Of a DNA stretch of 36,308 nucleotides, positions 1-22,585 are shown in pieces (the first letter of the stretch is position 1; each line of letters begins with the position of its first letter). The position numbers were made by a program, and so were the translations under genes. The stretch comes from Desulfotignum sp. (GTDB taxonomy: Bacteria > Desulfobacterota > Desulfobacteria > Desulfobacterales > Desulfobacteraceae), in NCBI GenBank assembly GCA_011389575.1, contig JAABUB010000032.1, positions 1 through 36,308 on the forward strand. The letters are read 5' to 3'. The notes below the pieces were generated by a model, which saw only the letters and a list, made by a program, of their open reading frames with translations, had not been told where the DNA came from and searched no databases.

Positions 1-1064
1 CCTTCCTCGTTCATGATTTTCGATGCGCTGACACTCACCGGAACCACTGTTCCCTCGACAAATTCGCACGCCATCTCTTTTTCAACAATGGTTTCCCCGC
101 GGTCCAAAGATGCCTTTAATGCCCAGAAATCATATGGCAGCACTGCATCCGGTGCCTCCCCTCGGGCCCGGGACAGATCAAGTCCGGTGATGCGCTCGGC
201 AGCAGTGTTGAAAAATGCGATTTTCCCATTTTTGTCCGTGGCGATTAACCCCACAGGAAGACTGGCCACCACCTGGTTGGCCACCGCACTGGTATCTTGA
301 AGAGAGCGCCTGGCAGACCGATAGTTCTGCAGCCAGAACAAGGAGATGAATCCGGCCATTCCCAGAATGACCAGGACCCCGGATATGATCACCGTGTTGC
401 GGACATCCTCCAGACGCGCGTCCTCAAACGGGCGGGGATCCAGGCCAACCATCATGACCGTATTTTTGCCGGCAGTTGTCCCGGTAAAGTTCCAGTTATT
501 ATCCACTCCCATGCCATGCTCTGGCATCATCCGGCCCATGCGGCGGCGCATCCGGTCGGTTTGGTCGGTCCGGTCGGTTATGGGCCGGAAATACCGGGAC
601 ACTTCGAATACCTCCTGCCGGTTGTCAATGCGTTTCAATCGCCAGTTGACCGCCTCTGGTGAATCCGGTTGGATTTTTGGCAAACCTGGATCCATCCGGG
701 TGCCGATCAGGTCATGTTTGCTGCTGGCCAGAATCAGCCCCTCCTGATCTGCCACGGTGATATAAAGGATATCGGAAAGCTGGGCGGTTTCATCGATCAG
801 GGTCTGGACCTGCTGGCCGCCCCACATCATCCCCATCATCCCGGTCCGGGCACCGGCTTCCACCGCCTGGATAACAGCGGCCCCCTTTTCACTCAGGATC
901 CGGGACATGTATTTTTTTTCCCGGCTGTAGTTCTGATAGGCCAGCACCACTGCGACAACCAACAAGATTCCCACCGATCCAATGATCACCCAGGGAGATG
1001 TATTCAGGCCGATCCGGTTTTGATAAGATCTTTCAGGGCGCATGATGTTTTCTTTTTTTTGCAT
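1..1064 (-). CDS. ZraS-like membrane sensor histidine kinase, N-terminal part (cut by window edge)
   Basis: I translated the minus strand from the ATG at 1064 and the frame stays open for about 354 residues to the window edge. It shows a membrane segment at about residues 25-43, an extracytoplasmic sensor region at about 45-225, a second membrane segment at about 226-245 and the start of a PAS domain at about 255-350. The HisKA and ATPase domains must lie beyond base 1. The region after the second membrane segment (FISLFW, then RRSLQDT and ASLPVGLI) closely parallels the kinase at 12141-13901, so the two are paralogues. The sensor loop is rich in methionine (MMGMM at 76-80, and five Met with one His at 172-185), which would suit Cu(I)/Ag(I), but the ligand is inference. 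An ATG at 1043 is an alternative start; neither has a good ribosome site. The kinase diverges from the ZraP-like gene at 1329, the arrangement seen for zraSR and zraP. Confidence 0.85.
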   Translation of the reverse strand, partial: MQKKENIMRPERSYQNRIGLNTSPWVIIGSVGILLVVAVVLAYQNYSREKKYMSRILSEKGAAVIQAVEAGARTGMMGMMWGGQQVQTLIDETAQLSDILYITVADQEGLILASSKHDLIGTRMDPGLPKIQPDSPEAVNWRLKRIDNRQEVFEVSRYFRPITDRTDQTDRMRRRMGRMMPEHGMGVDNNWNFTGTTAGKNTVMMVGLDPRPFEDARLEDVRNTVIISGVLVILGMAGFISLFWLQNYRSARRSLQDTSAVANQVVASLPVGLIATDKNGKIAFFNTAAERITGLDLSRARGEAPDAVLPYDFWALKASLDRGETIVEKEMACEFVEGTVVPVSVSASKIMNEE

Positions 1065-1240: not shown

Positions 1241-1256
1241 GTGGCACACAATTTGG
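1241..1256 (+). promoter_or_regulatory. Imperfect sigma-54 (-24/-12) promoter of the ZraP-like gene
   Basis: GTGGCACACAATTTGG matches the TGGCAC -24 box and the TTG of the -12 box, but the -12 GC is GG. The distance from the -12 box to the ATG (about 73 bp) resembles the good sigma-54 promoters at 14059 (about 70 bp) and 8776 (about 84 bp), and all three share GTGGCA. A second GG-N10-GC match begins at 1274. Confidence 0.45.
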
Positions 1257-1272
1257 TTATACATATAACCAA
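1253..1272. promoter_or_regulatory. 20-bp inverted repeat, candidate operator
   Basis: TTGGTTATA and TATAACCAA form perfect 9-bp arms around a 2-bp centre (CA). The site overlaps the -12 end of the candidate sigma-54 promoter and lies between the divergent sensor-kinase and ZraP-like genes. A regulator could bind here; which one cannot be told. Confidence 0.55.
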
Positions 1273-2086: not shown

Positions 2087-2407
2087 ATGAAGTCAAAAGA
2101 AAAAAATTCAGCTGACGAATCTCAGAGATCGACGGATGAGAAGATGGCCGAGGACGGGCAAGATGCCCTGACAAAATATTTCGATGGCATGGGAACCGCC
2201 ACCGCCAGGATCATCATCCACCGGAACATGGATGATGACCAATGGGAAAAATACGGCCTGAGGGATTTGAAAAACACAGGGCGTTATTATCTTGCCAAAA
2301 TTGTTGAAAAAGATGGCAGGGTTATCGATGAAATTCTGGTCGACAAGCAATCCGGAACAATCCAGTCACTGCGGGGGCAAATCGATTCCGGAGAGTTGAA
2401 ACGATAA
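2087..2407 (+). CDS. Hypothetical protein, 106 aa
   Basis: I do not recognise this family. The ATG at 2087 has GGAAG about eight bases upstream, and the frame ends in a TAA whose last A is the first base of the kinase ATG, so the two are translationally coupled. It is soluble, with no signal peptide or membrane segment. The first 30 residues are charged (Lys/Glu/Ser/Asp) and probably disordered. The rest (about 35-106) alternates basic and hydrophobic residues (RIIIHRNM, YYLAKIVEKDGRVIDEILVDKQSGTIQSL) like a small alpha/beta fold. The last 20 residues (DEILVDKQSGTIQSLRGQ) resemble a PepSY-like strand-turn-strand, but that is weak. Coupling to the kinase suggests a partner or substrate. Confidence 0.7.
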   Translation: MKSKEKNSADESQRSTDEKMAEDGQDALTKYFDGMGTATARIIIHRNMDDDQWEKYGLRDLKNTGRYYLAKIVEKDGRVIDEILVDKQSGTIQSLRGQIDSGELKR

Positions 2408-4434
2408 TGGTTTGGGAAGCTCATGATATGACAAAAACATGCAAGACCACACTTAAGGTTGGAGATGTGCTCAACAATAAATGGGTCATCCTCGGCTTTA
2501 TTGACAAGGGTGGGATGGGTGAGGTCTATCGTGCGCACCAAAGCAACCTGAATCGTGATGTCGCGATCAAGGTCGTTTCACAGGAGTGGCTCGAATCCAT
2601 TGACGAGGATGACGAAGAGATCGAAACACTGGTCCAGCGATTCAGGCGGGAAGTCCAGGCCATGGCCCAGATTCGCCACCCCAATATCCTGCAGGTTTTC
2701 GACCATGATTCCATCATTGTAAAAAAATGTGACCAGGATACATCCATTGAGTACATCGCTATGGAATACATCCCGGGCGGGTCTCTTAGAGACACCATGT
2801 CTGAAGAAGGATTCTATCCGGAAGAGGATCTTATCAAAACGTGGGTGAAACGCTATTTTTTCCCTGTGCTGGCGGGGGTGATGGCACTGCACGATAACGG
2901 CATCGTGCACCGTGACCTCAAGCCGGAAAATATCCTCATGGACCAGGACACGCCCAAAATAGCTGATTTCGGCCTGGCACGTTCGAGCAGGCTGAAACCG
3001 GTCACCCAGTCCATGGATGTGAAAGGTTCGCCTCATTATATGTCTCCGGAACATTTTTTCGATTTCAAAAGGGCTGATCAGCGCGCCGATGTTTATTCCC
3101 TGGGCAAAATGCTTTTTGAAGCGGTTGCAGGCAAGATCACCTCCGGGAAGACGCCCTTTAAACGCGCAAAGCTTGCCAAAGCCGAATCCCCTTTTTTTCA
3201 AGAGCTGGACCGAATCATTCAAATGGCCACGGCCGAGAGCAGAGAGGAACGAACAAAATCGGTTCGAGACCTGCTAGGGCAACTTGAACGCGTCATCCAT
3301 GGGCCAGAATTTCAAAAAAAGACAGAAAAACCATCCGGACCATATTTCGCCTCTTCCCTTTTTTTAAAACCGAAATGGATATGGACAGGCATCATTGTTT
3401 CGGTGTTATCGGTCTTGTCGATGACCATCTGGCATCTGATGGGTGAACCCGGTTTGCGACTGCAAAAAAATGCCACATCGATATCCCCGGGCCAACAGAA
3501 AATGATATCAGGGCCGGGGAACGGGACTAAAAAGGCGGTTACAAAAGAAGTCTCCTTCGCGGCTGAACACGTTGGCAAACAGCACCTCATTCAAGGAGGA
3601 GCATTAACAATTCCCAATTACGTGGATGGGAACAGTGAACGATCGGTTCAGGTCGATCCTTTTTATATGGACGAGTTCTTCGTTACAAATCAGCAGTTTG
3701 TCGATTTTTTGAATAACAACCTTTCAGAAATCAGCATAGATAGCGACGTGGTGAAAGGCAGTGGGACAAACTGGTTTTTGTTGGGAGAGGTGCGTTCGGG
3801 GTACGAACCGATCGTTTACCGCAACAAGGAATTCCATATAAGCGATCCAGCCTGGGCATCCAGCCCCGTCCTTCGCATTACCGGTTATGGGGCTTCGGCT
3901 TTTGCACAATATTTTGGCAGACGCTTACCGACACAAGTGGAAATGCTCTTTGCCATGGTCAAGGGGAAGGACAACTCGAAGGTGGACGCGGACCCGGCAA
4001 CAGATGTGAGTGTGCCGCAAGTGGAAGGCATGATGGGTATGATGCAGATGATGGGAGATTCGCAAAACGAAATGGAAAATTTGTCGGAACAAGAACGGGA
4101 CAGCACATCTCCTGAAAGATATCAGAGCGCAAAAGACAGCGTGGAACCGATGGGCTCCGATTTTTTACTGTCCGCCGCGTCTTTTTCACCGAACCTGTTA
4201 GGTATAAAGGGGCTGAACCATGAAATCGGTGAATGGGTTTCCAAAGAGGAGCAAAGCCGGCCATCCGGGGATGAATCAAAAACAGGTCGCTATGCGGTTA
4301 TCGGAGGGGTAGAGGGGGCGCCAAAGGATAACGATTCTTTGCCATCTGTGGTTGAGCGGTTCCCCTGGGAGGGATTTGAGGAAATTAGTTTTAGAACAGT
4401 TGAAAGCGCCGCTGTTGGCGATTCAGCAAAATGA
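2407..4434 (+). CDS. Transmembrane Ser/Thr protein kinase with extracytoplasmic FGE-sulfatase-like domain
   Basis: The 675-residue protein starts with a Hanks-type kinase domain (about 24-298): glycine loop DKGGMGEV (33-40), ATP lysine K55, catalytic HRDLKPEN (168-175) and DFG (187-189). All key residues are present, so it should be active. One membrane segment at about 323-345 (WIWTGIIVSVLSVLSM) would place residues 346-675 outside the cytoplasm. That part looks like an FGE-sulfatase/SUMF1 domain (VDPFYMDEFFVTNQQFVDFL at 416-435, AFAQYFGRRLPTQVEMLFA at about 498-516, EIGEWVSKEE, SFRTV), but it is degenerate, has no cysteine at the usual site, and carries a Met-rich insert (MMGMMQMMG, 542-550). 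It therefore probably binds or senses rather than oxidises a cysteine. It overlaps the upstream gene by one base. ATG 2428 is an alternative start. Confidence 0.88.
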   Translation: MVWEAHDMTKTCKTTLKVGDVLNNKWVILGFIDKGGMGEVYRAHQSNLNRDVAIKVVSQEWLESIDEDDEEIETLVQRFRREVQAMAQIRHPNILQVFDHDSIIVKKCDQDTSIEYIAMEYIPGGSLRDTMSEEGFYPEEDLIKTWVKRYFFPVLAGVMALHDNGIVHRDLKPENILMDQDTPKIADFGLARSSRLKPVTQSMDVKGSPHYMSPEHFFDFKRADQRADVYSLGKMLFEAVAGKITSGKTPFKRAKLAKAESPFFQELDRIIQMATAESREERTKSVRDLLGQLERVIHGPEFQKKTEKPSGPYFASSLFLKPKWIWTGIIVSVLSVLSMTIWHLMGEPGLRLQKNATSISPGQQKMISGPGNGTKKAVTKEVSFAAEHVGKQHLIQGGALTIPNYVDGNSERSVQVDPFYMDEFFVTNQQFVDFLNNNLSEISIDSDVVKGSGTNWFLLGEVRSGYEPIVYRNKEFHISDPAWASSPVLRITGYGASAFAQYFGRRLPTQVEMLFAMVKGKDNSKVDADPATDVSVPQVEGMMGMMQMMGDSQNEMENLSEQERDSTSPERYQSAKDSVEPMGSDFLLSAASFSPNLLGIKGLNHEIGEWVSKEEQSRPSGDESKTGRYAVIGGVEGAPKDNDSLPSVVERFPWEGFEEISFRTVESAAVGDSAK

Positions 4435-4447
4435 GGGGTGTTGGATT

Positions 4448-5305
4448 ATGAAATTAGCGGTTCTGTCCGATATCCACGGCAACCTGGAAGCGTTTGTCCA
4501 GTCACTGGATGACATGAAAGATCAAAAAATTGATGGCATTGTAAACCTTGGTGATGCCGTCGGGTATGGTCCGCAACCCGAAGAAGTCCTTAACTTGCTG
4601 GAAAAAAAGGGCATACCAAATATCCTCGGCAATCATGAACTGGCCGTGCTGGATAAGAAAAACAGTGATAATTTTTCACCCCCTGCGTTACGCGCTCTGG
4701 AACAGACCTTGAAATATGTAACCGCTGCATCCATGCGTTATCTGAAAAATCTTCCGACATACCGAAAGATCGAAGGCGCCCTCATGGTGCATGGCTGTCC
4801 GCCTGATTCACCGACAGATTACCTGAACCACATGAGCCGTTCGGAAATCAGGGAGATCTTTATAGAAACCGATTTCAACATTGCATTTGTCGGGCACACC
4901 CACCGCATGATGCTCGCAGGGTATGATGGAAAGGATCTCCGGTTCGATCCAATGCAGGAGGATACCGTTCAACTCAAGTCAAAATACCGGTATATCGTCA
5001 ATGTCGGCGCAGTCGGCCAGCCCCGAGATGGTGATCCGCGTGCCAAATATGTGATATGGGACAGCGATCGGAAAATACTCCAAATCAGACGCGTTGGTTA
5101 CAACGTAGACCGGGTGATCGCTTTGATAAAGGAACGGGGCTTTCTCCGACGGGATGCGGAACGGCTCTTACCGGGGATATACCCGATAGGCGGAAAATTT
5201 ATAAATTGGCAGCTCCGGACTGATAATCAAATAAAAATGTTGAAGAAAGGAGAAAAATATTGGCTAAAACTCTCTTGGCATATGCCTCCCTGCTGTTTGG
5301 AATGA
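4448..5305 (+). CDS. Calcineurin-like metallophosphoesterase (YfcE/MJ0936 type)
   Basis: This 285-residue protein shows the full dimetal phosphoesterase motif series: DIH (residues 8-10), GDAVGYGP (about 37-44), GNHE (about 62-65) and, later, GHTH with an upstream MVHGCP. Such enzymes hydrolyse phosphomono- or diesters with Mn/Fe/Ni; the substrate cannot be read from sequence. The start is the ATG at 4448, 13 bases after the kinase stop; upstream codons in frame lie inside the kinase gene. Its last 46 bases overlap the following permease gene, implying coupled translation. Sitting directly behind a Ser/Thr kinase, it could be the opposing phosphatase, but this fold more often acts on nucleotides or small esters, so that idea is tentative. 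Confidence 0.88.
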   Translation: MKLAVLSDIHGNLEAFVQSLDDMKDQKIDGIVNLGDAVGYGPQPEEVLNLLEKKGIPNILGNHELAVLDKKNSDNFSPPALRALEQTLKYVTAASMRYLKNLPTYRKIEGALMVHGCPPDSPTDYLNHMSRSEIREIFIETDFNIAFVGHTHRMMLAGYDGKDLRFDPMQEDTVQLKSKYRYIVNVGAVGQPRDGDPRAKYVIWDSDRKILQIRRVGYNVDRVIALIKERGFLRRDAERLLPGIYPIGGKFINWQLRTDNQIKMLKKGEKYWLKLSWHMPPCCLE

Positions 5306-6407: not shown

Positions 6408-6746
6408 ATGGCAAAAAATCCGGTTTGCGGTATGGAGATAGGCGACAAACAGGCTCGGCAAAAAAGCCTCTACAGGGGGGAAACGTATTCTTTCTGTAGC
6501 AAGGACTGCAAGGTGAAATTTGAGAGCAATCCTGAAAAATATTCGAATGTGCCGGAAGATGATGTCTCGGAAACACGGCTGGACCTTTACAGTCTGATTG
6601 AAACTGCCAAGGCCAACGGCCTTGAACCCTATTGGTATCTGAAATATCTTTTTGAAAACTTACCTGAGGCTATGACAGCCGATGAGTTTACGGTTCTGAT
6701 GCCGCAAAAAGTTGACAAGAACATGCTTGCAGGACCCGCCGCTTAA
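6408..6746 (+). CDS. YHS-domain protein fused to an IS66 transposase C-terminus
   Basis: Residues 1-48 form a YHS (TRASH-like) domain: NPVCGM (Cys7), a GETYSFCSKDCKVKF core (Cys30, Cys34) and FESNPEKYS. Such domains bind soft metals and are found in copper proteins. From about residue 57 the protein reads DLYSLIETAKANGLEPYWYL, LFENLPEA and a degraded LLPW region; this is the well-known C-terminus of IS66-family transposases and has nothing to do with YHS domains. An IS66-type terminal repeat follows the stop. The most likely history is that an IS66 element inserted into or beside a YHS gene and then lost most of itself, leaving its tail in frame. A ribosome site (GGGGAAG) precedes the ATG. 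Whether the fused tail folds is unknown. Confidence 0.85.
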   Translation: MAKNPVCGMEIGDKQARQKSLYRGETYSFCSKDCKVKFESNPEKYSNVPEDDVSETRLDLYSLIETAKANGLEPYWYLKYLFENLPEAMTADEFTVLMPQKVDKNMLAGPAA

Positions 6747-8791: not shown

Positions 8792-8874
8792 ATTCATAAA
8801 AACAACAGTAATGCAGTGATCATTAAACAATCGTCCTCTATACCGGTAAACCATACATGAAAAAGGAGAAAAAA

Positions 8875-9222
8875 ATGAAGATAAAAATAGTGTTCATCAT
8901 CTTGGGAGTGCTTGCAATCGGGTTTTCCATGAACGCGTATGCAATGATGGGAGGCGGCCGGACCCAGTCCGGTCAGACGCAGCATATGCATGACAACAGC
9001 CAGAGATATCATACGGATCAGGAATATCACAATAACGGCAGGGAACAGTATCGCCCTGACCATGGCAATCATATGGATGGTGAAAGCAGGTATGGCCAGG
9101 AGCATTTTATGGACGATGATTCCTTTTACCATAATGACAGCCACCCGATCGATCATGGGGACAATGGATATGACGGTCACAATACAGAAGACATGCATGA
9201 CAATGGCCCACAAGGCCATTAG
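8875..9222 (+). CDS. Secreted His/Asp-rich protein, probable metal binder
   Basis: The 115-residue protein has a signal peptide with cleavage after AYA (about residue 23). The mature part is very hydrophilic, with about 13 His, many Asp and several Met, mostly in HD, HN and YH pairs (TQHMHDNSQRYH, DHGNHMDGE, DDDSFYHNDSHPIDHGD). Such composition suits periplasmic binding of Zn, Cu, Ni or Ag. I recognise no named domain. The start is the ATG at 8875 because AAGGAG lies eight bases before it; an in-frame ATG at 8857 would place that ribosome site inside the gene. It is first in a sigma-54-driven operon with an OprP-type porin and a lipoprotein. Confidence 0.8.
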   Translation: MKIKIVFIILGVLAIGFSMNAYAMMGGGRTQSGQTQHMHDNSQRYHTDQEYHNNGREQYRPDHGNHMDGESRYGQEHFMDDDSFYHNDSHPIDHGDNGYDGHNTEDMHDNGPQGH

Positions 9223-10600: not shown

Positions 10601-10762
10601 ATGTCACAAACCACAAAAGACAATATCGGAAAAAAAATCTTCAGGTCTGCTGCCGTTGTAGTGGTTCTGGTCACAGTGGCTGTTCTGGTGACATCCTGTG
10701 CCGGGCCGCGGTATGGAAGGGGCCATCATCACTATATGGATGATAATATTGTTCAACCATGA
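10601..10762 (+). CDS. Small His-containing lipoprotein, 53 aa
   Basis: The ORF starts at an ATG with AAGGA at a good distance. It has a basic N-terminus, a hydrophobic core (about residues 17-31) and a lipobox LVTSC, so Cys33 would be lipidated. The mature peptide is only about 21 residues and contains RGHHHYMDDN. The last bases overlap the 3' end of the convergent response-regulator gene by 10 bp. An imperfect G+C-rich hairpin (about 10517-10533) separates it from the porin gene. Confidence 0.65.
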   Translation: MSQTTKDNIGKKIFRSAAVVVVLVTVAVLVTSCAGPRYGRGHHHYMDDNIVQP

Positions 10763-12144
10763 CGGTCTGATAAAATTTGGGCAAGATCCAGATGGTATTT
10801 TTTGATCTTGTTGTTTAATGTCGTTCGGGTGATGTGCAGTAATTTTGCCGCCTTGGTCTTGTTCCCCCCGGTCTGCTTCAGGGTCTCTGTCAGGGCCATG
10901 GTTTCAATGTCATCAAGGGATCTGCCGCAGAGCTCAGGCAGGGGATTTGGGGGATCGTCATTCGGTCTGTAGTTTTCCATCACAGTCGCCGGCAGGTCTT
11001 TTTCCGAGATATATTGCCCCATGGACAGGATAACCGCCCTTTCAACGGCATTTTCAAGTTCTCTGACATTGCCGGGCCATGGATGTTTTATCATGGCATC
11101 CATGGCCACGGGCGTGAATCCTTTGAACTGTTTTCTGTTTTTTTGTGCGTACAGAGATAAAAAATTCTGGGCAAGCAGGGGGATATCCTCTTTTCTGTCT
11201 TTTAATGAAGGGATTTTGATATTGATAACGTTCAGGCGGTAAAACAGATCTTCTCTGAACCGACCGTGCTTCACTTCCTGTTTCAGGTTTTTGTTTGTGG
11301 CGACAATAATTCTGACATCGATCCGGATCGCTTTGTCATTTCCTATCCTTTGAATCTCTCTTTCCTGAATGGTGCGCAGCAGCTTGACCTGCATGGACAA
11401 AGGGATTTCTCCTATCTCATCTAAAAAAATGGTACCTTTGTCTGCATGGAGAAACAGGCCGTCCCGTCTTTTGTCCGCCCCGGTGAAAGCCCCTTTTTCA
11501 TGTCCGAACAGTTCTGATTCCAGAAGCGTTTCATTCAACGCAGCACAATTAATGGAGATCAGCTTGTTTTTATTTCTGGCGCTGTGATCATGAATGGCTT
11601 TGGCAAACAGTTCTTTTCCGGTTCCGCTTTCGCCGGTAATCAGGATGGTGGCATCTGTGGGCGCCGCAATTTTTGCCGTTTCCATCACTTTTTTCAAGGC
11701 AGGACTGGAACCTGTAATGCGGGAAAAACCGGTATTTAATGATATTTTTTTTTTCAGGTCGGCATTTTCACGGGTCAGCTGCAGATGACTCATTGCCCTG
11801 TCAATGGTGATTTTAAGGTCATCAAAATTCAAGGGTTTGGTAAGATAATCATAGGCACCAAGCTTCATCGCCTCCACTGCTTTATTCACTGAAGAATACG
11901 CTGTCATGATGATAATGGGTATGGCAGGATTGAACTCTTTTATTTTCTGCAACGCTTCCATCCCCCCGATATTTGCCATTCTCACATCCATGAGCACCAG
12001 ATCATAGGGCGTTTTTTTTACCACGCTGATGGCATCTTTGCCGTCGGTTACACTGTGTATTGAATGACCTATGCTTTTTAATACGGTTTCAAGCATGGAC
12101 AGATGCGCTGTGTCATCATCAACGATCAAAATTTTACCTGTCAT
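10753..12144 (-). CDS. ZraR/AtoC-type sigma-54-dependent response regulator
   Basis: The 463-residue protein has a receiver domain (1-120; DDD at 9-11, phosphorylation site Asp53 in LVLMDVRM, Lys103), an AAA+ domain (about 140-375) with Walker A GESGTGKE (171-178) and the sigma-54 contact loop GAFTGA (218-223), and a FIS-type helix-turn-helix at the end (GGNKTKAAKLLHITRTTLNNKI). It should drive open-complex formation at sigma-54 promoters when phosphorylated. Its gene overlaps the kinase gene at 12141-13901 by four bases, so the two form a pair. The divergent promoter at 14059 and that at 8776 are its obvious targets. All catalytic motifs are intact. Confidence 0.95.
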   Translation of the reverse strand: MTGKILIVDDDTAHLSMLETVLKSIGHSIHSVTDGKDAISVVKKTPYDLVLMDVRMANIGGMEALQKIKEFNPAIPIIIMTAYSSVNKAVEAMKLGAYDYLTKPLNFDDLKITIDRAMSHLQLTRENADLKKKISLNTGFSRITGSSPALKKVMETAKIAAPTDATILITGESGTGKELFAKAIHDHSARNKNKLISINCAALNETLLESELFGHEKGAFTGADKRRDGLFLHADKGTIFLDEIGEIPLSMQVKLLRTIQEREIQRIGNDKAIRIDVRIIVATNKNLKQEVKHGRFREDLFYRLNVINIKIPSLKDRKEDIPLLAQNFLSLYAQKNRKQFKGFTPVAMDAMIKHPWPGNVRELENAVERAVILSMGQYISEKDLPATVMENYRPNDDPPNPLPELCGRSLDDIETMALTETLKQTGGNKTKAAKLLHITRTTLNNKIKKYHLDLAQILSDRHG

Positions 12145-13901
12145 GGTAATATCCTCTGTTGTTTTTTAAGCGGTATTGAAACGAAAAATGTGGTTCCCTT
12201 CCCCTGGATACTTTCAAACCAGATGGTGCCGTTATGACCTTCGATTATTTTGTGGACAATGGCCAGTCCCAGTCCGGTCCCCTTTTTTTTGGTTGTAAAA
12301 TAGGGATTGAATACAGCGGCCTGGTCATCGGGTAAAATCCCTTCCCCGGTATCTGAGACAGCAAAAAGAACGGCATTCTCTTTCACCCGGACACCCACTG
12401 TCAGGTCTCCGCCATGTTTCATGGCCTGGATGGCATTAATATAAAGATTCAGCAGAACCTGGCTGAACCGATCCGGATCGAGATTGAGTTTGAGAAGCGG
12501 GGCATCGATTTTTTCCTTTACCCGGATGCCGGCGCTTTCGGCCTCATGCCGGATAATGCGCAATGAGTTTTTGATAAATTGATCCAATTGTGTGGGGTAT
12601 AATTTTACGTCAGCCGGCCGTGCAAATTCAAGCAGTTCAGATATTACCCGGTCTACTCTGTCAATCTCTTGAACCATTAACCGGGCCGCTTTTTTATTTT
12701 CACTGGTATCTTCAAACAGGCTGCCGAAAAAACCGGCATACCCCTTGATGGAACTTAAGGGGTTTCTGACTTCATGGGCAATGCCCGAGGCCAGTGTTCC
12801 CAGCGCGGCAAGCCTTTCTTTTCTTCTGATTTTCAGCTCCAGTGCCCGGATCTGGCTCAAATCTTTTAGAATAAAGAGAAATCCTATGAAATCACCGGCC
12901 TGGTCGAAAATATTTGTAACCATCACGGAAATGGGGGTTGGACCTGATTTTTCCGAGTTGACAACGATCTCTTTTTCCATGCCTTTTTTGTTGGCATCGG
13001 CAATCGTATGCAGATGCCAGATCTCTTCGGGAAGAACGTCACCGGCTGTTTTGTCAGTTACCCCGGAAATATTGATTTCCAGAAGAGAACAGGCGGTATC
13101 ATTCATATACCGGATGTGCCGGCCCTTATCCACAATGATGACTCCCATGGGAAGGCTGGCAATGGTTTCAGCGGCAAAAGCTCTTGTGTCCTGGAGCAGT
13201 CTGCGGGAACGGATGACTTTGCGAGACCAGAACAACGAAATAATTCCGGCCAGCCCCACGAGAAAAACAATGGAGATCATCACAATGTTGTGGTGCAGGT
13301 CTTCGGTAACAGCCTGGTCAAAAGGGTATACGTCCATCCCGATGAATATCATGGATCTAATTTCATCATCGATGCCCGGGGACAGGGGCATCATCTGCCT
13401 CTCAGTCTGGAATCTTTGTTTTTTGACAATTTCCGAAGATATGGGAAGAAAAGATTTATACACTTCAAAGTATCGTGTGTTATTTTCTTTTTCAACAATC
13501 CGCCATCCCTGTTCGGTTGATGCTGTTATCTGATTTTTAAATGCCGTGTCGTCGATCTGTGAGCCGATCTTTTTCCGATCATTGTGGGCCAGGATTTTTC
13601 CGGATGCGTCAACCAGAAACATATAATAAATATCCGAATGGGATGCAGTTTCTTCCAGCATCTTCTGCAAAAAAGGAAGATTGCGCGGCACCTCGCCGGT
13701 TCCGACATCTGCCTCAAAAGACGCTATCCATACCTCTCCTTTTTCCATTAAATGGCTGCCAATATGCTGTTTTTCCCTGTTGTACATAATAACGGTCTGA
13801 AAAAGGATAATCACCATAAGTACCGAACTGATCCCAATGGTGATCCATGGGGAGGCAGCAACCATAAATTGGTTTGTTTTGTTGAAATTCATTCTTTGCA
13901 A
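12141..13901 (-). CDS. ZraS-like membrane sensor histidine kinase
   Basis: The 586-residue protein has membrane segments at about 18-39 and 205-225 with an extracytoplasmic sensor domain between them, a PAS domain at about 240-345, a HisKA domain (His376 in AHEVRNPLSS) and an HATPase domain (Asn489, DTGEG 517-521, GTGLGLAIVHK 541-551). It autophosphorylates and passes phosphate to the regulator encoded immediately downstream with a 4-bp overlap. The layout matches ZraS, which senses periplasmic zinc. It is a clear paralogue of the truncated kinase at 1-1064 but lacks that protein's Met-rich loop, so the two probably sense different signals. ATG 13901 is used; the in-frame ATG four codons (12 bases) later is an alternative. 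Confidence 0.93.
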   Translation of the reverse strand: MQRMNFNKTNQFMVAASPWITIGISSVLMVIILFQTVIMYNREKQHIGSHLMEKGEVWIASFEADVGTGEVPRNLPFLQKMLEETASHSDIYYMFLVDASGKILAHNDRKKIGSQIDDTAFKNQITASTEQGWRIVEKENNTRYFEVYKSFLPISSEIVKKQRFQTERQMMPLSPGIDDEIRSMIFIGMDVYPFDQAVTEDLHHNIVMISIVFLVGLAGIISLFWSRKVIRSRRLLQDTRAFAAETIASLPMGVIIVDKGRHIRYMNDTACSLLEINISGVTDKTAGDVLPEEIWHLHTIADANKKGMEKEIVVNSEKSGPTPISVMVTNIFDQAGDFIGFLFILKDLSQIRALELKIRRKERLAALGTLASGIAHEVRNPLSSIKGYAGFFGSLFEDTSENKKAARLMVQEIDRVDRVISELLEFARPADVKLYPTQLDQFIKNSLRIIRHEAESAGIRVKEKIDAPLLKLNLDPDRFSQVLLNLYINAIQAMKHGGDLTVGVRVKENAVLFAVSDTGEGILPDDQAAVFNPYFTTKKKGTGLGLAIVHKIIEGHNGTIWFESIQGKGTTFFVSIPLKKQQRILP

Positions 13902-13957
13902 TTTCCTGGAAGTGATTAAAAAATAACCAATGTCATCCGCTCAATTGTCCAGATATT

Positions 13958-13974
13958 AATCATTTCATATGATT
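13958..13974. promoter_or_regulatory. AATCAT-N5-ATGATT inverted repeat
   Basis: Perfect 6-bp arms lie 85-100 bp before the -24 box of the promoter at 14059, the distance at which enhancer-binding proteins often bind. It is a candidate upstream activator site for the Cus operon, not proven. Confidence 0.4.
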
Positions 13975-14027
13975 GTGCAACCGGCTTGTGCGGGTCAGGA
14001 TAAGAAATAATTCAATCGTTTCATTCA

Positions 14028-14043
14028 TTATAACATGTTATAA
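14028..14043. promoter_or_regulatory. 16-bp perfect palindrome TTATAACATGTTATAA
   Basis: The palindrome ends 15 bp before the -24 box of the Cus-operon promoter. That is close for a classical enhancer and could be a repressor or architectural site. It resembles in base content (TTATAAC/GTTATAA) the arms of the palindrome at 1253-1272. Confidence 0.6.
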
Positions 14044-14058
14044 AAAAAGATAACCATG

Positions 14059-14074
14059 TGGCACGGTCATTGCA
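14059..14074 (+). promoter_or_regulatory. Sigma-54 promoter of the Cus-type efflux operon
   Basis: TGGCACGGTCATTGCA is a full match to the sigma-54 consensus (TGGCACG-N4-TTGCA). It lies 70 bp before the SHOCT gene and diverges from the kinase/regulator genes, so the pair at 10753-13901 probably controls it directly. Confidence 0.92.
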
Positions 14075-14143
14075 AAATAGTATTTTTGTTAAGAATAAAT
14101 GAAACCGTTTGAAATAACCGGATAAATATTTCAGGAGAAAAAA

Positions 14144-14410
14144 ATGTGGGGATGTAATTTCATTGGGTCAGGCATTGGGCATTGGGGATTTGGTGGTGGA
14201 ATCATCGGATTCGGTTTCACACTGTTACTCGTCGTCCTGGTTGGCCTTGTTTTGCTCCAATTGTATAAATCCGGCAGAAAACACGCACAGCGTTCCGATA
14301 CAATGGATTCTTTGAAAATTCTGAAATTACGATATGCCAAAGGGGAAATCTCGGAACCGGAATACCTGAAAATGCGGGAAATTCTGTGCAATAATGATAC
14401 ATCCAGGTGA
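14144..14410 (+). CDS. Small membrane protein with C-terminal SHOCT domain (second copy)
   Basis: This 88-residue protein starts MWGCNF, continues with a Gly-rich stretch, has one membrane segment (about residues 20-44) and ends with a SHOCT motif (LKLRYAKGEISEPEYLKMR, about 63-81). It is a paralogue of the protein at 1791-2057 with the same length. AGGAG precedes the ATG at a normal distance. It is the first gene after the sigma-54 promoter and leads the efflux operon; 120 bp without a gene separate it from the first outer-membrane factor. Function unknown. It may help membrane assembly or sensing for the pump. Confidence 0.88.
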   Translation: MWGCNFIGSGIGHWGFGGGIIGFGFTLLLVVLVGLVLLQLYKSGRKHAQRSDTMDSLKILKLRYAKGEISEPEYLKMREILCNNDTSR

Positions 14411-14531
14411 CGGCATTTTGTTATGGAAATCAAAAAAATAAAAAAATACAGAATACTGCAAAGTTGAAAGGTGTGGAAGGGTCAAAAACACTTCGTGCAA
14501 TCGAAACCATTTATACGTCAGGGAAATGACA

Positions 14532-15878
14532 ATGAAACAGTTCTTTATCCGATCGATTTTTCTGTGTTTTGGTATCCTGGTGTTTTGTCAGAACAACGCC
14601 CGGGCAGAAGAACAAAAAGATCTGACAAAACTGGCATCCAGTCTGTCAGCAACCATAAGATTGTCAGATCTGCTTACCTATGCCTATTTGTCCAGTCCGG
14701 CCATCACTGCGTCCAAAAAATCCTGGCAGACGTTTATTGAAAATTACAGGATCGGCAAAAGCTATCCAGATCCCCAGCTGGCCGCCACCTATTTCCCCCG
14801 GCCCATTGAAACCCGGCTTGGCCCCCAGGACTGGAGTCTGACCCTGTCCCAGGTGATTCCTTTTCCGGGCACCTTGTCCCAAAAGGCCAGGGTGCTGGAG
14901 GCAGACGTCACAATCTCCAGGCTCAAGGTGGATAAAACCGTTAAAGCCATTGTCACGGAGGTGTCTTCTTCATTTTACGAACTGGTGTATATCCAGAAAG
15001 CCATTGATGTGGCCCGGGCCAACCTGGATCTGAATCAAAAAATGCTGCAGATCAGCCAAAATGCCTATGCAGACGATAAAGCCCTGTTTTACGATGTATC
15101 CAAGTCCCGGGCCCAGACCGCCCAGATACAATATGACATCCTGTTGCTTCAGGAGCTGGAAAAAACAGAAAAAACAAAGCTCAATACTCTGCTGAATCGG
15201 CCCCCGGATGCCGCACTGGGACATGCGGCAGGCACCCTGCCCCAAAAGGTGGTGTATTCTTTGGACGAGGTGTATGACCTTGCCATGCTGCACCAGGAAG
15301 ATATCCTCATGGCAGAGGAAAACGTGCACAAATCGGAACAGGCCATGCAGCTGACCCGATTGGAAACCCTGCCGTCGTTCAGAGTGGGCCTGTTTTATGC
15401 CGCAATCGGTGACCCGGATGTGGCAAATCCGCCGCCGGATGCCGGTGATGATGCTGTGGGGGTGCAGTTCGGCATCAACCTTCCCTTGTGGTTTGGTAAA
15501 AATCAAAGCCGGACAGCACAGGCCCTGGCAGAAAAAGAAAAAGCACAGGCAGAGAAAACCAACACTGCCAACAAAGTCAAAGCCGGGATCAGCCGCCTGT
15601 GGTTCAAGCTGGAAAATGCCGAACGGCTGATAATCCTGTATGAAAAAAATCTGCTTCCCCAGGCGGTCTCTGCTGTACAGACGGCAGAGACCTGGTTCAA
15701 GCAGGGCCAGGGCAGTTTTGCCGATTTTCTGGAAATCCAGGCAACTGCCTACAATTTTCAATTGTCTCTTGAACGGGCCAAAGCTGATTACGCCAAAACC
15801 CTGGTACTGCTGGAGCAGGCAGCCGGTGCTATCCTGGATGCGAAAATCACGCCAGACACAGGAGAAAAAAAGCCATGA
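14532..15878 (+). CDS. TolC/CusC-family outer-membrane efflux factor (first copy)
   Basis: The 448-residue protein has a signal peptide (cleavage near ARA-EE) and two OEP repeats rich in helical heptads (about 50-230 and 240-440). VIPFPGTLSQKARVLEADV in the first half and INLPLWFGKNQS in the second are typical of the outer-membrane factors that form the trimeric exit duct of Cus/Czc pumps. The ATG at 14532 has AGGG at a normal distance; an ATG at 14526 would sit too close to it. The 3' end overlaps the next gene by four bases (ATGA). It would carry substrate from the CusA/CusB pump across the outer membrane. Confidence 0.88.
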   Translation: MKQFFIRSIFLCFGILVFCQNNARAEEQKDLTKLASSLSATIRLSDLLTYAYLSSPAITASKKSWQTFIENYRIGKSYPDPQLAATYFPRPIETRLGPQDWSLTLSQVIPFPGTLSQKARVLEADVTISRLKVDKTVKAIVTEVSSSFYELVYIQKAIDVARANLDLNQKMLQISQNAYADDKALFYDVSKSRAQTAQIQYDILLLQELEKTEKTKLNTLLNRPPDAALGHAAGTLPQKVVYSLDEVYDLAMLHQEDILMAEENVHKSEQAMQLTRLETLPSFRVGLFYAAIGDPDVANPPPDAGDDAVGVQFGINLPLWFGKNQSRTAQALAEKEKAQAEKTNTANKVKAGISRLWFKLENAERLIILYEKNLLPQAVSAVQTAETWFKQGQGSFADFLEIQATAYNFQLSLERAKADYAKTLVLLEQAAGAILDAKITPDTGEKKP

Positions 15879-17413
15879 AAATACAAATTTCAATCCTGAC
15901 AATACTGGTGCTTTTTTTTGTTTCTGTTTGCTTTGCAGATTACGGCACCATGAAAAAGGAACTGGAAGACTACCGGCCCCGGGACAGCTTTGCCATTCGG
16001 CCATCATCCGATATTCTGGAGCAGAAAAGCGATTCCCGTGAGGCAATGTTGTCTGTTGACGAATCACAGATACAAATCCTCAAACAAGAATATGAAAAAA
16101 ATCTGTATGGACCCGTTGACGATGCCGTGACAATGGGGGTGGATGAAAAAATCCTCGCCCGGTTGTCTCCAACAGGTGATGACCCTGAGGCCGCAGCAGA
16201 GCTCATCAGGCAGAAGATCAATCTGAAAGAGATCAAAGCCATTGCAGCCCTGCGAAATACGGATATCAAGGCTGCCAGAAAAAAGGTCCTGGCAGAGATC
16301 CAGTCCTTTGACCAGGTCACGCACTTAGATGACAGCCTGCAACAGTATGCTGCATTCACCGCTGCCCTCAACAACAGGGTCGGGCCTCTGAAAACAAAGG
16401 ATTCCATCAAGGCAGAACATCCGTTTCCCGGCCTTGTTGCCCTCAAGGGCCGCATCGTCCAAAGCCAGGTGGACATGCTGGTGGAGCAGATGAAAATTGC
16501 CGGCAAACAGGTGCTCCAGGATGTTGACAATGCCTATTGGGAGCTTGCATATACCACCCGGTCCATCCGGATCATCCATGAGACCATGGCTGCATTCGAC
16601 CGGCTTCTGGATGTGGCTGCATCCCTGTATAAAAGTGGCAGAACCAGTTACCAGGATGTGATCAAGGTAACCATAAAAATAGAAGAACTTAACGAAGATC
16701 TGGTCACCCTGGAAAATAAAGCAGATAATGGTAAAATCCGGCTGCTTGAACTGATGGACCTTCCGGCAGATACACGTATGGGGCCGGTGAAAACAGCGTC
16801 TCTGCCCGAAACAATTCCCGTGCCAGAAAAATTGTTACCCATTGCCAGGGACCATCGCCAGGAACTGGCCGCCATCCGGTTTCAGATCAGCAAACTGCAG
16901 TCCATGGTGGAGATGGCTGAATTAATGAAGCAGTCATCGTTTACCCTGGGATTGTCCTATTTTGAAGCCGACCATGTCAATACAGCCGGCACTGATGCCC
17001 CGCAGCAGGCATTTGCCGAAAAAACCATGGCATCCATGAAAAACAACCAGCCGGTGAAACCCTGGTATGGCTTGGACAGCCCCTGGTTACAGCAGACAAG
17101 GCAGACACTGGCAGGTCTTGAACATACCCTGGTTGCCAGAGAAAATGCCACAGACCGCATGGTGTACAATGCCTGGTTCAAAACAGACAAAAACCTGCGG
17201 GAGCTGGATTTGTATCAAAACCGGATACTGCCTCTGACAAAGTCTGCACTGGATGTGTCCACCAGGGAATATGAGACCGGGTCAATTCCCTTTTCCCAGG
17301 CAATCGGGTCCTATACAGACTGGCTGAACGTGAAACTGACCATTGCGCAAAAGACAAAAGACTTAGGTGTCTCTTTTGCCGCCCTTGAAACGGTTGTAGG
17401 TACAAACTTATAA
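15875..17413 (+). CDS. TolC-family outer-membrane protein (second copy, divergent)
   Basis: This 512-residue protein starts at an ATG overlapping the previous stop. It has a signal peptide (cleavage near CFA-DY), an unusual N-terminal extension of about 120 residues before the OEP-like helices (ELAYTTRSIRIIHETMAAFDR; LYKSGRTSYQDVIKVTIKIEEL) and a second OEP-like half ending in STREYETGSIPFSQAIGSYTDWL. It is the same broad family as its neighbour but clearly not a recent duplicate. It may be a second exit duct with other partners, or it may form a mixed complex with the first. Two outer-membrane factors for one RND pump are unusual. Confidence 0.8.
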   Translation: MKIQISILTILVLFFVSVCFADYGTMKKELEDYRPRDSFAIRPSSDILEQKSDSREAMLSVDESQIQILKQEYEKNLYGPVDDAVTMGVDEKILARLSPTGDDPEAAAELIRQKINLKEIKAIAALRNTDIKAARKKVLAEIQSFDQVTHLDDSLQQYAAFTAALNNRVGPLKTKDSIKAEHPFPGLVALKGRIVQSQVDMLVEQMKIAGKQVLQDVDNAYWELAYTTRSIRIIHETMAAFDRLLDVAASLYKSGRTSYQDVIKVTIKIEELNEDLVTLENKADNGKIRLLELMDLPADTRMGPVKTASLPETIPVPEKLLPIARDHRQELAAIRFQISKLQSMVEMAELMKQSSFTLGLSYFEADHVNTAGTDAPQQAFAEKTMASMKNNQPVKPWYGLDSPWLQQTRQTLAGLEHTLVARENATDRMVYNAWFKTDKNLRELDLYQNRILPLTKSALDVSTREYETGSIPFSQAIGSYTDWLNVKLTIAQKTKDLGVSFAALETVVGTNL

Positions 17414-17457
17414 ACACACAACACTACAAGCCCGGCTGAGCAAGGTGCCGGCCCGGC

Positions 17458-17496
17458 GGACAACGCAAGCATATAGCTGGACAACGCAAGCGTATA
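17458..17496 (+). repeat. Short tandem repeat between outer-membrane factor and adaptor genes
   Basis: GGACAACGCAAGCATATA and GGACAACGCAAGCGTATA lie 21 bp apart with one difference, in a 123-bp gap of the efflux operon. The preceding 40 bases are unusually G+C-rich (CCCGGC, GCCGGCCCGGC). It may be an RNA element or an insertion scar. Confidence 0.6.
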
Positions 17497-17536
17497 AAAG
17501 TTGTTTAATGGAAAATTCAGGGAGAAACGATTTATC

Positions 17537-19084
17537 ATGAATATCAAATCAACCCTGCTGGTTATTATTTTGACGGCACTGATAACAGGCACAGCGGTAT
17601 TTTTTATAATGACCACCATTGGACCGACATCCTCTGAGAGCAGTAATGCCTTGTCTGAACAAAATGGCGATGCTGTGTCAAAAGAGCGGGAAATCATCTA
17701 CTGGAAAGCCCCCATGGACCCCACGGAGATCTATGACGAGCCGGGCAAAAGCAAGATGGGCATGGACCTTGTGCCGGTGTATGCTGATGAGGTTTCCGAA
17801 GATGAAGACACAACAGAAAGGAAAATCGTATACTGGAAAGCGCCCATGGATCCCACAGAGATCTATGATGAACCCGGAAAAAGCAAGATGGGCATGGATC
17901 TTGTGCCGGTGTATGAAGATGAGGTAAAGGGCGGGGTGGATATTAAAATAAATCCGGTGGTGGAACAGAACATGGGCCTTAAAATCAAACCCGTTGAACA
18001 GGGCCCTTTGAATCATGTCATCAAAACCTATGGTCATGTGACCTTTGATGAAACCAGGACCGGTATTGTCAGTCCCAAAACCGCAGGGTGGGTTGAAACC
18101 CTTTATGCCGACTATACCGGGTTTGTTATTGAAAAGGGCGATCCCCTTTTTGCCATGTATTCTCCGTCCCTGCTGGCATCCCAGGAGGAATATCTGTCAG
18201 CCTATAAAAATTTTCAGGCACGCAAAACCCCCTTGAACAAGGATCTGCTGGAATCAGCCAAAAAAAGACTGGCATACTATGACATTGCAGACCAGGACAT
18301 CGCTTTTCTGGAACAGACCGGGCAGGTCCGCAAAACCCTGGCCATCCGGTCCCGATTTAAAGGGGTGGTGACCCATAAAAACGTGATTGAAGGGGCATAT
18401 GTCAAAGCCGGGGAGAGCCTGTTCACCATAGCGGATCTGTCCACGGTGTGGGTGGAAGCCCATATCTTTGAATATGAGCAGAACCTGGTGTATGAAGGGC
18501 AGACCGTTGAAATGACCCTGTCCTACAATCCGGAAAAGGTGTACACGGGAAAAATTGCCTATATTTTTCCCTATCTGCAGCCCAAAACCCGGGATGTGGT
18601 CATCAGGGTCATCTTTGACAATACAGCGGGTGACCTGAAACCGGACATGTTTGCAAATATAAAAATCAATACCAGCGGGGATGCAGCCGGGCTGATTATT
18701 CCCTCCCAGGCGGTGATCCACTCCGGAGAAAAACAGCTGGTGTTTGTGGCCCAAGGCAATGGCCGGTTCACCCCCCGAAAGATCACCACCGGTGTCCATC
18801 TGGAGGAGGGAAGGGTCCAGGTGCTGACCGGCCTGGCGCAAGGAGAGGATGTCGTGGTATCCGGTCAGTTCCTGCTGGATTCTGAATCCCGGCTCAAAGA
18901 GGCGATCCAGAAGATGATCTCATCCAAATCCGGCACTGCAAAAGAAAAAAAGGAACCATCCCAAAATGATGGGGACAGTTTTTTTGAAGAGATGGAAGAT
19001 GGCACAGAATCCGGGGATGATTTTTTCCAGGACATGGAAGATGACACAGAGTCCGGAGATGACTTTTTCCAGGATATGGAATAA
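17537..19084 (+). CDS. cusB: CusB-type periplasmic adaptor with duplicated heavy-metal-binding domain
   Basis: The 515-residue protein has an N-terminal membrane anchor (about 5-27). Two almost identical heavy-metal-binding domains follow (about 55-82 and 99-126), each reading YWKAPMDPTEIYDEPGKSK then MGMDLVPVY; one copy is usual. Next come the lipoyl/barrel-sandwich and beta-barrel regions of a membrane-fusion protein (GYVTFDE-like start near 160, IRSRFKGVVTHKNV, VWVEAHIFEYE, GLAQGEDVVVSGQFLLDSES). The tail carries an acidic repeat (DDFFQDMED-type, three copies, about 478-515). It links the inner-membrane pump to the outer-membrane factor and may hand metal to the pump. The start at 17537 has AGGGAG upstream; an earlier in-frame ATG at 17501 would precede it. 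Confidence 0.92.
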   Translation: MNIKSTLLVIILTALITGTAVFFIMTTIGPTSSESSNALSEQNGDAVSKEREIIYWKAPMDPTEIYDEPGKSKMGMDLVPVYADEVSEDEDTTERKIVYWKAPMDPTEIYDEPGKSKMGMDLVPVYEDEVKGGVDIKINPVVEQNMGLKIKPVEQGPLNHVIKTYGHVTFDETRTGIVSPKTAGWVETLYADYTGFVIEKGDPLFAMYSPSLLASQEEYLSAYKNFQARKTPLNKDLLESAKKRLAYYDIADQDIAFLEQTGQVRKTLAIRSRFKGVVTHKNVIEGAYVKAGESLFTIADLSTVWVEAHIFEYEQNLVYEGQTVEMTLSYNPEKVYTGKIAYIFPYLQPKTRDVVIRVIFDNTAGDLKPDMFANIKINTSGDAAGLIIPSQAVIHSGEKQLVFVAQGNGRFTPRKITTGVHLEEGRVQVLTGLAQGEDVVVSGQFLLDSESRLKEAIQKMISSKSGTAKEKKEPSQNDGDSFFEEMEDGTESGDDFFQDMEDDTESGDDFFQDME

Positions 19085-19102
19085 CAGACAGGGGATGCTG
19101 CG

Positions 19103-22100: not shown

Positions 22101-22585
22101 TGTATATACATTTTGGCAACCTTACAGAGGTGGTCATTGTGATGGCCAGCCTGCCGTTTTCTTTGATCGGGGGGTTCTGGCTGATCTATCTTTTGGGATA
22201 CAACATGTCTGTGGCCGTGGGGGTGGGGTTTATCGCTCTGGCCGGACTGGCTACGGAAACCGGGATTGTGATGCTGGTGTATCTGGACGAGGTGTTCCGA
22301 CGTCGGACTGCCGCCGGGCAGATGACCACAGTGTCCGACCTGCATCCCGCCATTGTGGAAGGGGCGGTGGAGCGGGTCCGGCCCTTGATCATGACCGTAG
22401 CTACCACCCTGATAGGTCTTTTGCCCATCATGTACGGCAGCGGGGCCGGCTCCCAGATAATGAAGCGCATTGCAGCACCCATGGTGGGGGGACTTGTGTC
22501 TTCCGCCGTCATGACGTTGATCATCATCCCGGTGATTTACTTTTTGTGGAAAACCCGGGAAATTAATAAAAACAACAATATGTAA
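19103..22585 (+). CDS. cusA: CusA-type heavy-metal RND efflux pump with two insertions
   Basis: This 1160-residue protein has the HME-RND layout: TM1 at about 13-31, GGIAIAIGVMVDASIVMVEN with Asp405 of the proton relay, and the two large periplasmic loops. Met624, Met674 and Met785 sit in LLYMPTTLPG, LSMIETV and RIDMLSTGIK, the contexts of the E. coli CusA copper-binding methionines (573, 623, 672 as I recall), so Cu(I)/Ag(I) is the likely cargo. It is about 110 residues longer than usual. One insert (about 505-560) adds two hydrophobic stretches after TM6; another (about 690-752) carries SSWPGWLKQPF and AGWPGWLAAPF, an internal repeat. It starts 18 bp after the adaptor gene. Confidence 0.95.
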   Translation: MIDKIIEWSVHNKFMVVLATFFVIAGGILAMVNTPLDAIPDLSDVQVIIYTEYPGQAPQVVEDQVTYPLTTAMLSVPFAKVVRGYSFFGYSFVYLIFEDGTDIYWARSRVMEYLNFVSGRLPAGVTPSLGPDATGVGWVYEYVLQDTTGNTDLAELRSLQDWFVRYELTAVPGVSEVASIGGFVKQYQVEVDPNKLASYGISIRKIKNAIQQSNADVGGKLIEMGETEFMVRGLGYISSLEDIRQIVVSFDGKGTPILLGDIANIQIGPELRRGILEWNGEGETVGGIVVMRYGENALEVIKRVKEKLADLEKGLPEGVEILTGYDRSALIQRAVDTLKTKLTEEMIVVALVCIIFLLHFRSAFVAIFTLPVGILMSFLIMYPFNVNANIMSLGGIAIAIGVMVDASIVMVENAHKHLGRDRGKKSHTQIILDASKEVGPALFFSLLIITVSFLPVFSLMEQSGRLFKPLAYTKTTAMAASSVLAITIIPVLMIFFVREHPIDPALPKKAKAKIWVPALAGPPLAVVCAGLAGVPLPDISLVLALGLSVFFGICLFPQKIIAEKNNPLNRFLIWVYLPAIKWVLQWRKITILVAVAAIAVTWYPMTRVGSEFMPPLNEGDLLYMPTTLPGISITKAKELLQQTDKIIQRFPEVKTTLGKIGRAETSTDPAPLSMIETVITLRPQVEYDIIEIPRFFSSWPGWLKQPFTWIWPERKNGKVLHEWRKKQIDRFYAGWPGWLAAPFEWILPEERYITMQELIDDLDEAVKFPGVTNAWTMPIKTRIDMLSTGIKTPVGIKVLGPDLSTLADLGKQIESLLRDKKGTLSVFSERVTGGNYLDFTINRKEIARYGLTVQDVQDIIKTAIGGMNVTYTVEGLERYPVNLRYNREFRDNLHMIRRVFVPTPSGAQVPLTQLADIAVKKGPAGIKSENSKRSAWVFVDIKGMDLGTYVKQARQLVDENIDLPSGYSLVWSGQYEYMEKAKKTLRLIIPATLLVIFILLYIHFGNLTEVVIVMASLPFSLIGGFWLIYLLGYNMSVAVGVGFIALAGLATETGIVMLVYLDEVFRRRTAAGQMTTVSDLHPAIVEGAVERVRPLIMTVATTLIGLLPIMYGSGAGSQIMKRIAAPMVGGLVSSAVMTLIIIPVIYFLWKTREINKNNNM

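Follow-up and report, generated by a model that had tools for sequence, protein, structure and literature searches.

A transmembrane Ser/Thr kinase with a degenerate FGE-like outer domain in Desulfotignum sp.: a probable sensor of copper and silver stress

The window considered here, that is, the whole stretch of DNA analysed, is one complete contig (C93) of 36,308 bases from an assembly of 3.56 Mb that is 83% complete. Near its beginning, a cassette of small genes, a kinase gene and a phosphoesterase gene is located, and a membrane histidine kinase gene is read in the divergent direction (Table 1). The ATG of the Ser/Thr kinase gene overlaps the stop of the preceding gene, and the phosphoesterase gene follows. 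In an earlier sequence-only reading, the kinase was placed at an operon edge shared with a ZraP-like and a SHOCT protein. The shared cassette was indeed found, with the kinase inside it and not at its edge; the SHOCT label passed the Pfam cut-off narrowly, and the matches behind the ZraP-like label stayed below the NCBIfam and Pfam cut-offs. The truncated histidine kinase, a part of the cassette missing from that reading, carries a Met-rich extracytoplasmic segment with the motif GMMGMMWGG (nt 816-842) and the stretch RMRRRMGRMMPEHGMG (nt 507-554). The contig ends within its gene, and its regulator is not seen. Fold matches of the 106-aa protein were not significant, and its possible PepSY-like nature is a guess.

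Table 1. Positions of the genes, sites and protein parts of the cassette in the window
Feature	Position (nt)	Residues	Strand	Basis or remark
Membrane histidine kinase, N-terminal 354 aa, cut by contig end	3..1064		-	PAS; sCache_3_2 just below Pfam cut-off
Sigma54-like -24/-12 site TGGCACACAATTTGGT	1242..1257		+	87 bp before zraP-like gene; -12 element departs from consensus
ZraP-like periplasmic protein, 126 aa	1329..1709		+	NCBIfam PRK11546 E 2.6e-11, 44 bits vs cut-off 200; Pfam Metal_resist below cut-off
Small membrane protein with SHOCT C-terminus, 90 aa	1785..2057		+	Pfam SHOCT E 8.9e-7, just above cut-off
Conserved 106-aa protein	2087..2407		+	No Pfam match
Transmembrane Ser/Thr kinase with degenerate FGE-like extracytoplasmic domain	2407..4434		+	675 aa
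Hanks-type kinase domain	2500..3276	32-290	+	Pfam PF00069 Pkinase E 8e-43, above cut-off
Single membrane helix	3370..3438	about 322-344	+	Hydrophobic stretch read from sequence
Degenerate FGE-sulfatase-like domain	3583..4413	393-669	+	Profile and predicted fold
Disordered, hypervariable insert of FGE-like domain	3967..4176	521-590	+	Alignment and model
Met-rich motif MMGMMQMMG	4030..4056	542-550	+	Inside insert
Calcineurin-like metallophosphoesterase, 285 aa from ATG 4448	4448..5305		+	Pfam Metallophos_2; proposed partner phosphatase

A loose sigma54 pattern, TGGCAC[GA]N4TTG, occurs three times in the whole window, both strands counted. A site similar to that before the zraP-like gene was found 97-126 bp before zraP in the related loci L005 (12/12 positions), L007 and L008, and related sites precede SHOCT in L006 and L013. 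This conserved form came from the looser search, and a strict scan revealed the site before zraP in L005 only. One more sigma54-like site, matching at 12/12 positions, is present at window position 14059. The region 10753-22585 of the window holds another sigma54 two-component pair (10753-13901, minus strand), set opposite two outer-membrane efflux-like genes, a CusB gene with heavy-metal-binding domains and a CusA gene. At 6408-6746, a YHS-domain ORF runs into a C-terminal piece of an IS66 transposase, which suggests remodelling of the island by an insertion sequence. The ORF at 8857-9222 encodes a small protein that looks secreted, abounds in His, Met and Asp and has no Pfam match.

All Hanks-type catalytic motifs (Lys, HRDLKPEN and DFG) are present in the window kinase. 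Thirteen checked positions (K55, E82, H168, R169, D170, K172, N175, DFG, E215, D228 and R282) show no variation across all 55 aligned sequences, and the earlier description of the kinase half as intact agrees with these data and with the Pkinase match. The protein does not belong to the PASTA kinases (PknB/Stk1), as the model NF033483 reaches 213 bits against a cut-off of 450 and covers residues 19-305 only; no PASTA repeats were matched by Pfam in it. Within the membrane helix, W326 and W342 are the same in 16 of 16 aligned sequences. Since the kinase is inside the cell and the single helix lies between the two halves, we infer that the FGE-like half faces the periplasm.

The outer half is matched by the Pfam FGE-sulfatase profile PF03781 at residues 405-573 with E 1.2e-13, above the cut-off. 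An AlphaFold2 model of residues 369-675, built from 16 sequences, showed a mean pLDDT of 69 and a pTM of 0.67. Values of ten-residue blocks were 85-96 in the first part of the FGE-like core (about residues 419-518) and 48-91 in its last part; across the insert (residues 523-592) pLDDT was below 50, and this part is predicted to be unstructured. The 50 PDB matches listed by Foldseek were all FGEs, the FGE paralogue, EgtB or PvdO, with E from 1e-8 to 1e-5 and an FGE on top (E 1e-8); TM scores were only 0.39-0.51 and rmsd about 9-13 Å over the whole model, the disordered insert included. Thus, both the profile and the predicted fold bear out the degenerate FGE fold proposed from the sequence. The FGE cysteine pair, which we take to lie between the GEW and GFR motifs, is absent, and the protein is not an active FGE by this mark: the window domain has no cysteines at all, one to four cysteines occur within the domain in 24 of 55 relatives, and two between GEW and GFR were read from the sequence contexts of none of the 55. 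The usual catalytic cysteine is therefore missing, as was claimed. As a special mark of the family this loss was rejected: loss of catalysis alone is not unusual, because three other FGE-like proteins of the same genome, read by eye, are also without the pair. A core cysteine at a fixed place was found in 21 of 73 members, in 20 of those 21 as H-x-x-C.

The Met-rich motif noticed earlier in the outer half does lie there, in the variable insert. Similar but different clusters, including GGMMRMMGDW, NMMHMMQMD, MHGQMHSQ, GHMHMMDM and others, were seen in the aligned inserts of relatives. Two cut-offs, strict (four Met/His in nine residues) and lax (three in nine), were set after viewing the inserts of the class set. 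At the strict cut-off, clusters in the insert amount to 11.4 per 1000 aa and occur in 31 of 73 members, the densities in the linker and in two core parts of the same 73 members being 0.3, 0.0 and 0.2 per 1000 aa, and that in the tails of control kinases 0.15 (1 of 24 proteins). The contrast is smaller at the lax cut-off, with 16.6 per 1000 aa in the insert vs 0.3 in the linker, 1.3 and 1.0 in the core parts and 1.9 in the controls; a lax cluster is also present in the N-terminal core part of 12 of 73 members. Among the class members, 36 of 55 inserts have a lax cluster, 5.2 being expected from composition, and no linker of the 55 has one. Outside the class, a Met/His cluster is present in 5 of 18 members. 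In two close relatives of the window kinase (L009 and L010), the insert is shortened and the Met cluster is absent.

The cluster is changeable. On a quick kinase-domain tree with good support for 25 of its 70 inner branches, this trait changes at least 15 times. Across the 73 members, 39 have only the cluster, 19 only the core cysteine, 13 neither and 2 both. These counts look exclusive, yet complementarity of cluster and cysteine stays a suggestion because independent pairs on the tree lend it no support. The expectation that the cluster tracks copper genes was rejected, since no correlation was found between its presence and copper genes nearby (Fisher p 0.6-0.9). Homologues without the loop and in unrelated contexts had been named as evidence that would speak against a metal receptor. 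The first part of this was found, as no cluster is present in 32 of 73 members even at the lax cut-off; against the second part stands the position of family members beside copper, zraP or SHOCT genes, which is far more frequent than for other kinases.

The family matches 79 of 389 genomes of the class at E 1e-5, and regions were fetched from 40 of the 79, mostly better-scoring ones. The 56 family loci comprise the window, 15 of 21 loci of the first relative set (L005-L019) and those of the 40 fetched class genomes; L020-L025, partial or matching the FGE part only, were left out. From 60 profile matches, the fragment L010_12 was removed and four ORFs shorter than 560 aa were left out, giving the 55 aligned sequences. 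Forty loci of other Ser/Thr kinases, hand-picked in 27 of 30 genomes listed, all of which carry the family, served as controls; 24 of them, with tails of at least 60 aa, formed the tail control for cluster density, and L105 was kept although one of its genes weakly matches the C-terminal profile (E 5e-5). Outside the class, loci were afterwards fetched from 19 of 29 newly matching genomes of the same phylum, the ten weakest being left out; L151 has a stop inside the match and no kinase ORF, so the 19 loci gave 18 kinases. Seeds for test loci excluded the locus itself, and cluster representatives were named by Pfam.

With P-type ATPase, multicopper oxidase, CusA/B and YHS counted as copper genes, at least one stands within 7 kb in 30 of 56 family loci and in 0 of 40 control loci (Fisher 1e-9). 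When zraP and SHOCT are added, which was the neighbourhood proposed for a search, the counts are 38 of 56 and 0 of 40 (Fisher 2.6e-13), and outside the class copper genes were found in 9 of 19 loci, in none through YHS. These p-values overstate the linkage because the loci, being related, do not count as independent cases. YHS is not strictly a copper gene; a recount without it gives 28 of 56, and YHS alone brings in L069 and the window, where about 10 kb separate the kinase from the first of the Cus genes. By gene type, again within 7 kb and in the order family (n = 56) vs control (n = 40), the counts are 17 vs 0 for P-type ATPase and for zraP-like genes, 16 vs 0 for SHOCT, 15 vs 0 for the small protein, 13 vs 0 for multicopper oxidase, 5 vs 0 for CusB and for YHS, 4 vs 0 for CusA, 22 vs 6 for histidine kinase, 20 vs 3 for NtrC, 8 vs 1 for metallophosphoesterase and 21 vs 12 for PP2C. 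No metal gene stands within 7 kb in 18 of 56 loci, partly due to short contigs and gaps in ORF calling. The neighbour counts are probably low because clustering missed genes that tblastn or Pfam finds, namely zraP and SHOCT of L005 and of the window. CPCALG together with a YN motif, presumably a mark of Cu+ pumps, was found in 11 of 18 neighbouring ATPase genes, and the HCHxxxH site in 10 of 13 neighbouring multicopper oxidase genes.

Named relatives include Desulfosarcina and Desulfoprunum, which we take to be Desulfobacterota. The common order in related loci is a divergent histidine kinase and NtrC-type regulator, followed by zraP-like, SHOCT, small protein, kinase and metallophosphoesterase genes. 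The divergent pair is found in L005, L006, L007, L008, L012 and L013. Nothing is missing from this order in L007 and L008, and the one departure in L005 is the small gene, split over two frames. L006 is without a zraP-like gene at the usual place, and L012 and L013 are without both this gene there and the phosphoesterase; in these three loci, a zraP-like gene stands beyond the regulator and none between the pair and SHOCT. At L008:7238-12296, two family kinases are arranged in tandem, each preceded by a match to the small gene. The window copy itself was probably acquired by transfer, because the domain is absent from all 11 same-genus genomes listed and the nearest copies found (L005-L008, 76-77% identity) belong to organisms of other genera; misbinning of the contig is the alternative.

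Within three genes of 59 kinases, PP2C was found in 23 cases, metallophosphoesterase in 8 (L005, L006, L007 and L008 among them), both in none and neither in 28. Pairing with PP2C as a special mark was rejected, since PP2C also stands near 12 of 40 control kinases, and because of this only the exchange of phosphatase type in the clade of the window is suggestive. The gene at L063:4368-6308, near a family kinase, encodes a SpoIIE-type phosphatase that combines a HAMP domain with a Met-rich segment and may be a further Met-rich sensor. Clustering groups it with genes of L064, L086, L089 and L094.

In our opinion, held with fair but far from full confidence, the window protein may be considered a receptor Ser/Thr kinase that responds to Cu(I)/Ag(I) in the periplasm and belongs to a copper-resistance cassette. 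This reading of the sequence data is favoured because the kinase domain is intact, the outer fold is predicted to be FGE-like, a Met/His cluster is concentrated in the variable disordered insert of many members, and linkage to copper export and oxidation genes is strong. The earlier proposal of a receptor kinase for periplasmic metal, perhaps Cu or Ag, gains from the predicted core and from the copper, zraP and SHOCT context, and loses from a loop that is not universal and does not correlate with copper genes.

A rather unlikely but serious explanation is an envelope-stress receptor kinase, in which the FGE-like domain would sense damaged periplasmic proteins or contact the ZraP or SHOCT proteins, copper being no more than the most frequent cause of such stress. 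The zraP-like gene, divergent sensor histidine kinase and sigma54 regulator of L005, L007 and L008 resemble ZraP-ZraSR, whose ZraP is a chaperone, and many members without the Met cluster keep the copper neighbourhood. Against this speak the concentration of strict clusters in the insert over a near-zero background and the copper-type pumps and oxidases among the neighbours. It is improbable that the FGE-like domain has a ligand-binding or structural role unrelated to metals, with the Met-rich stretch as incidental low complexity. FGE-like and C-type lectin folds do serve elsewhere as generic binding domains, the insert is hypervariable and disordered, and 10 of 24 control kinases have a lax cluster as well, but the strict density in the insert far exceeds that in the rest of the domain and in control kinases, and copper linkage is strong. 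Least probable is a sensor for another metal, e.g., zinc, which the cluster would bind, since, despite the name of the PRK11546 model (zinc resistance sensor/chaperone), the zinc-protein nature of E. coli ZraP and the ATPases of L006, L007 and L080 with CPCALV and without a YN motif, thioether-rich sites favour Cu(I)/Ag(I), and the family is adjoined by multicopper oxidases and Cus-type pumps, which are copper/silver genes.

If the kinase is a Cu(I)/Ag(I) sensor, excess periplasmic Cu(I) or Ag(I) would bind to the Met/His cluster of the FGE-like part; in many members lacking the cluster, an H-x-x-C pair in the fold might be the metal ligand instead. Metal binding would change the FGE-like domain or its dimerisation and so switch the cytoplasmic kinase, which would phosphorylate targets in the cytoplasm; candidates are the sigma54 response regulator and the small protein of the adjacent gene. 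The adjacent metallophosphoesterase, or PP2C in other members, would reverse the phosphorylation. In parallel, the divergent histidine kinase, itself Met-rich, would respond to this ion too and activate the cassette through a sigma54 promoter.

A wider statement can be made only tentatively and is, to our mind, possible rather than probable. The family may be widespread, mainly in sulfate-reducing bacteria and their relatives, and may represent the fold of a copper enzyme that lost catalysis and was turned into a Cu(I)/Ag(I) sensor with interchangeable ligands (the Met/His cluster of the insert or the H-x-x-C of the core), which controls one copper regulon together with a Met-rich histidine kinase that works in parallel. 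To our knowledge, periplasmic copper sensing in bacteria is known mainly via histidine kinases, and it is rarely known what bacterial receptor Ser/Thr kinases respond to. If the proposal is true, it adds a new type of input to Hanks kinases and a layer of copper control to sulfate reducers and their relatives, and provides an example of a sensor made from an enzyme fold; insert and gene context together point to a ligand that lends itself to direct testing. The kinase is probably a so far undescribed kind of copper/silver-stress sensor. In a literature search of open-licence PMC papers, none of the listed titles or openings of abstracts described an FGE-like receptor Ser/Thr kinase family.

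Of the known systems, ZraP-ZraSR shares with the cassette the zraP-like gene, the divergent sensor histidine kinase with its sigma54 regulator and the sigma54-like site, whereas the cassette adds SHOCT, the small protein, the FGE-like kinase and the phosphatase, and its sensor is Met-rich. PknB-type receptor kinases are similar in having a Hanks kinase, one membrane helix and an extracytoplasmic sensor, and PP2C stands near some members of the family; they differ from it in that the family has no PASTA match, an FGE-like sensor and a copper-gene neighbourhood. With FGE (SUMF1), the fold is shared according to profile and predicted structure, but the window domain lacks the catalytic cysteine pair, contains a large disordered insert and is fused to a membrane kinase. 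According to PMC12123546, FGE works with Cu(I), which a bis-thiolate site holds between two active-site cysteines.

In E. coli CusS, a methionine triad (M133-M135) and a histidine-rich stretch were described in a flexible periplasmic loop, whose Met/His residues are not conserved in all homologues (PMC10100754). CusS/CopS and the window family have in common a membrane kinase tied to genes of copper export; in both, a flexible loop of the periplasmic part bears Met/His residues, and these are not conserved throughout the homologues. The family differs in being a Ser/Thr and not a histidine kinase, in its FGE-like sensor and in its phosphatase, which is a separate gene. By this analogy, we propose CusS as the nearest functional parallel, the window kinase following what may be the same logic with a Ser/Thr kinase output.
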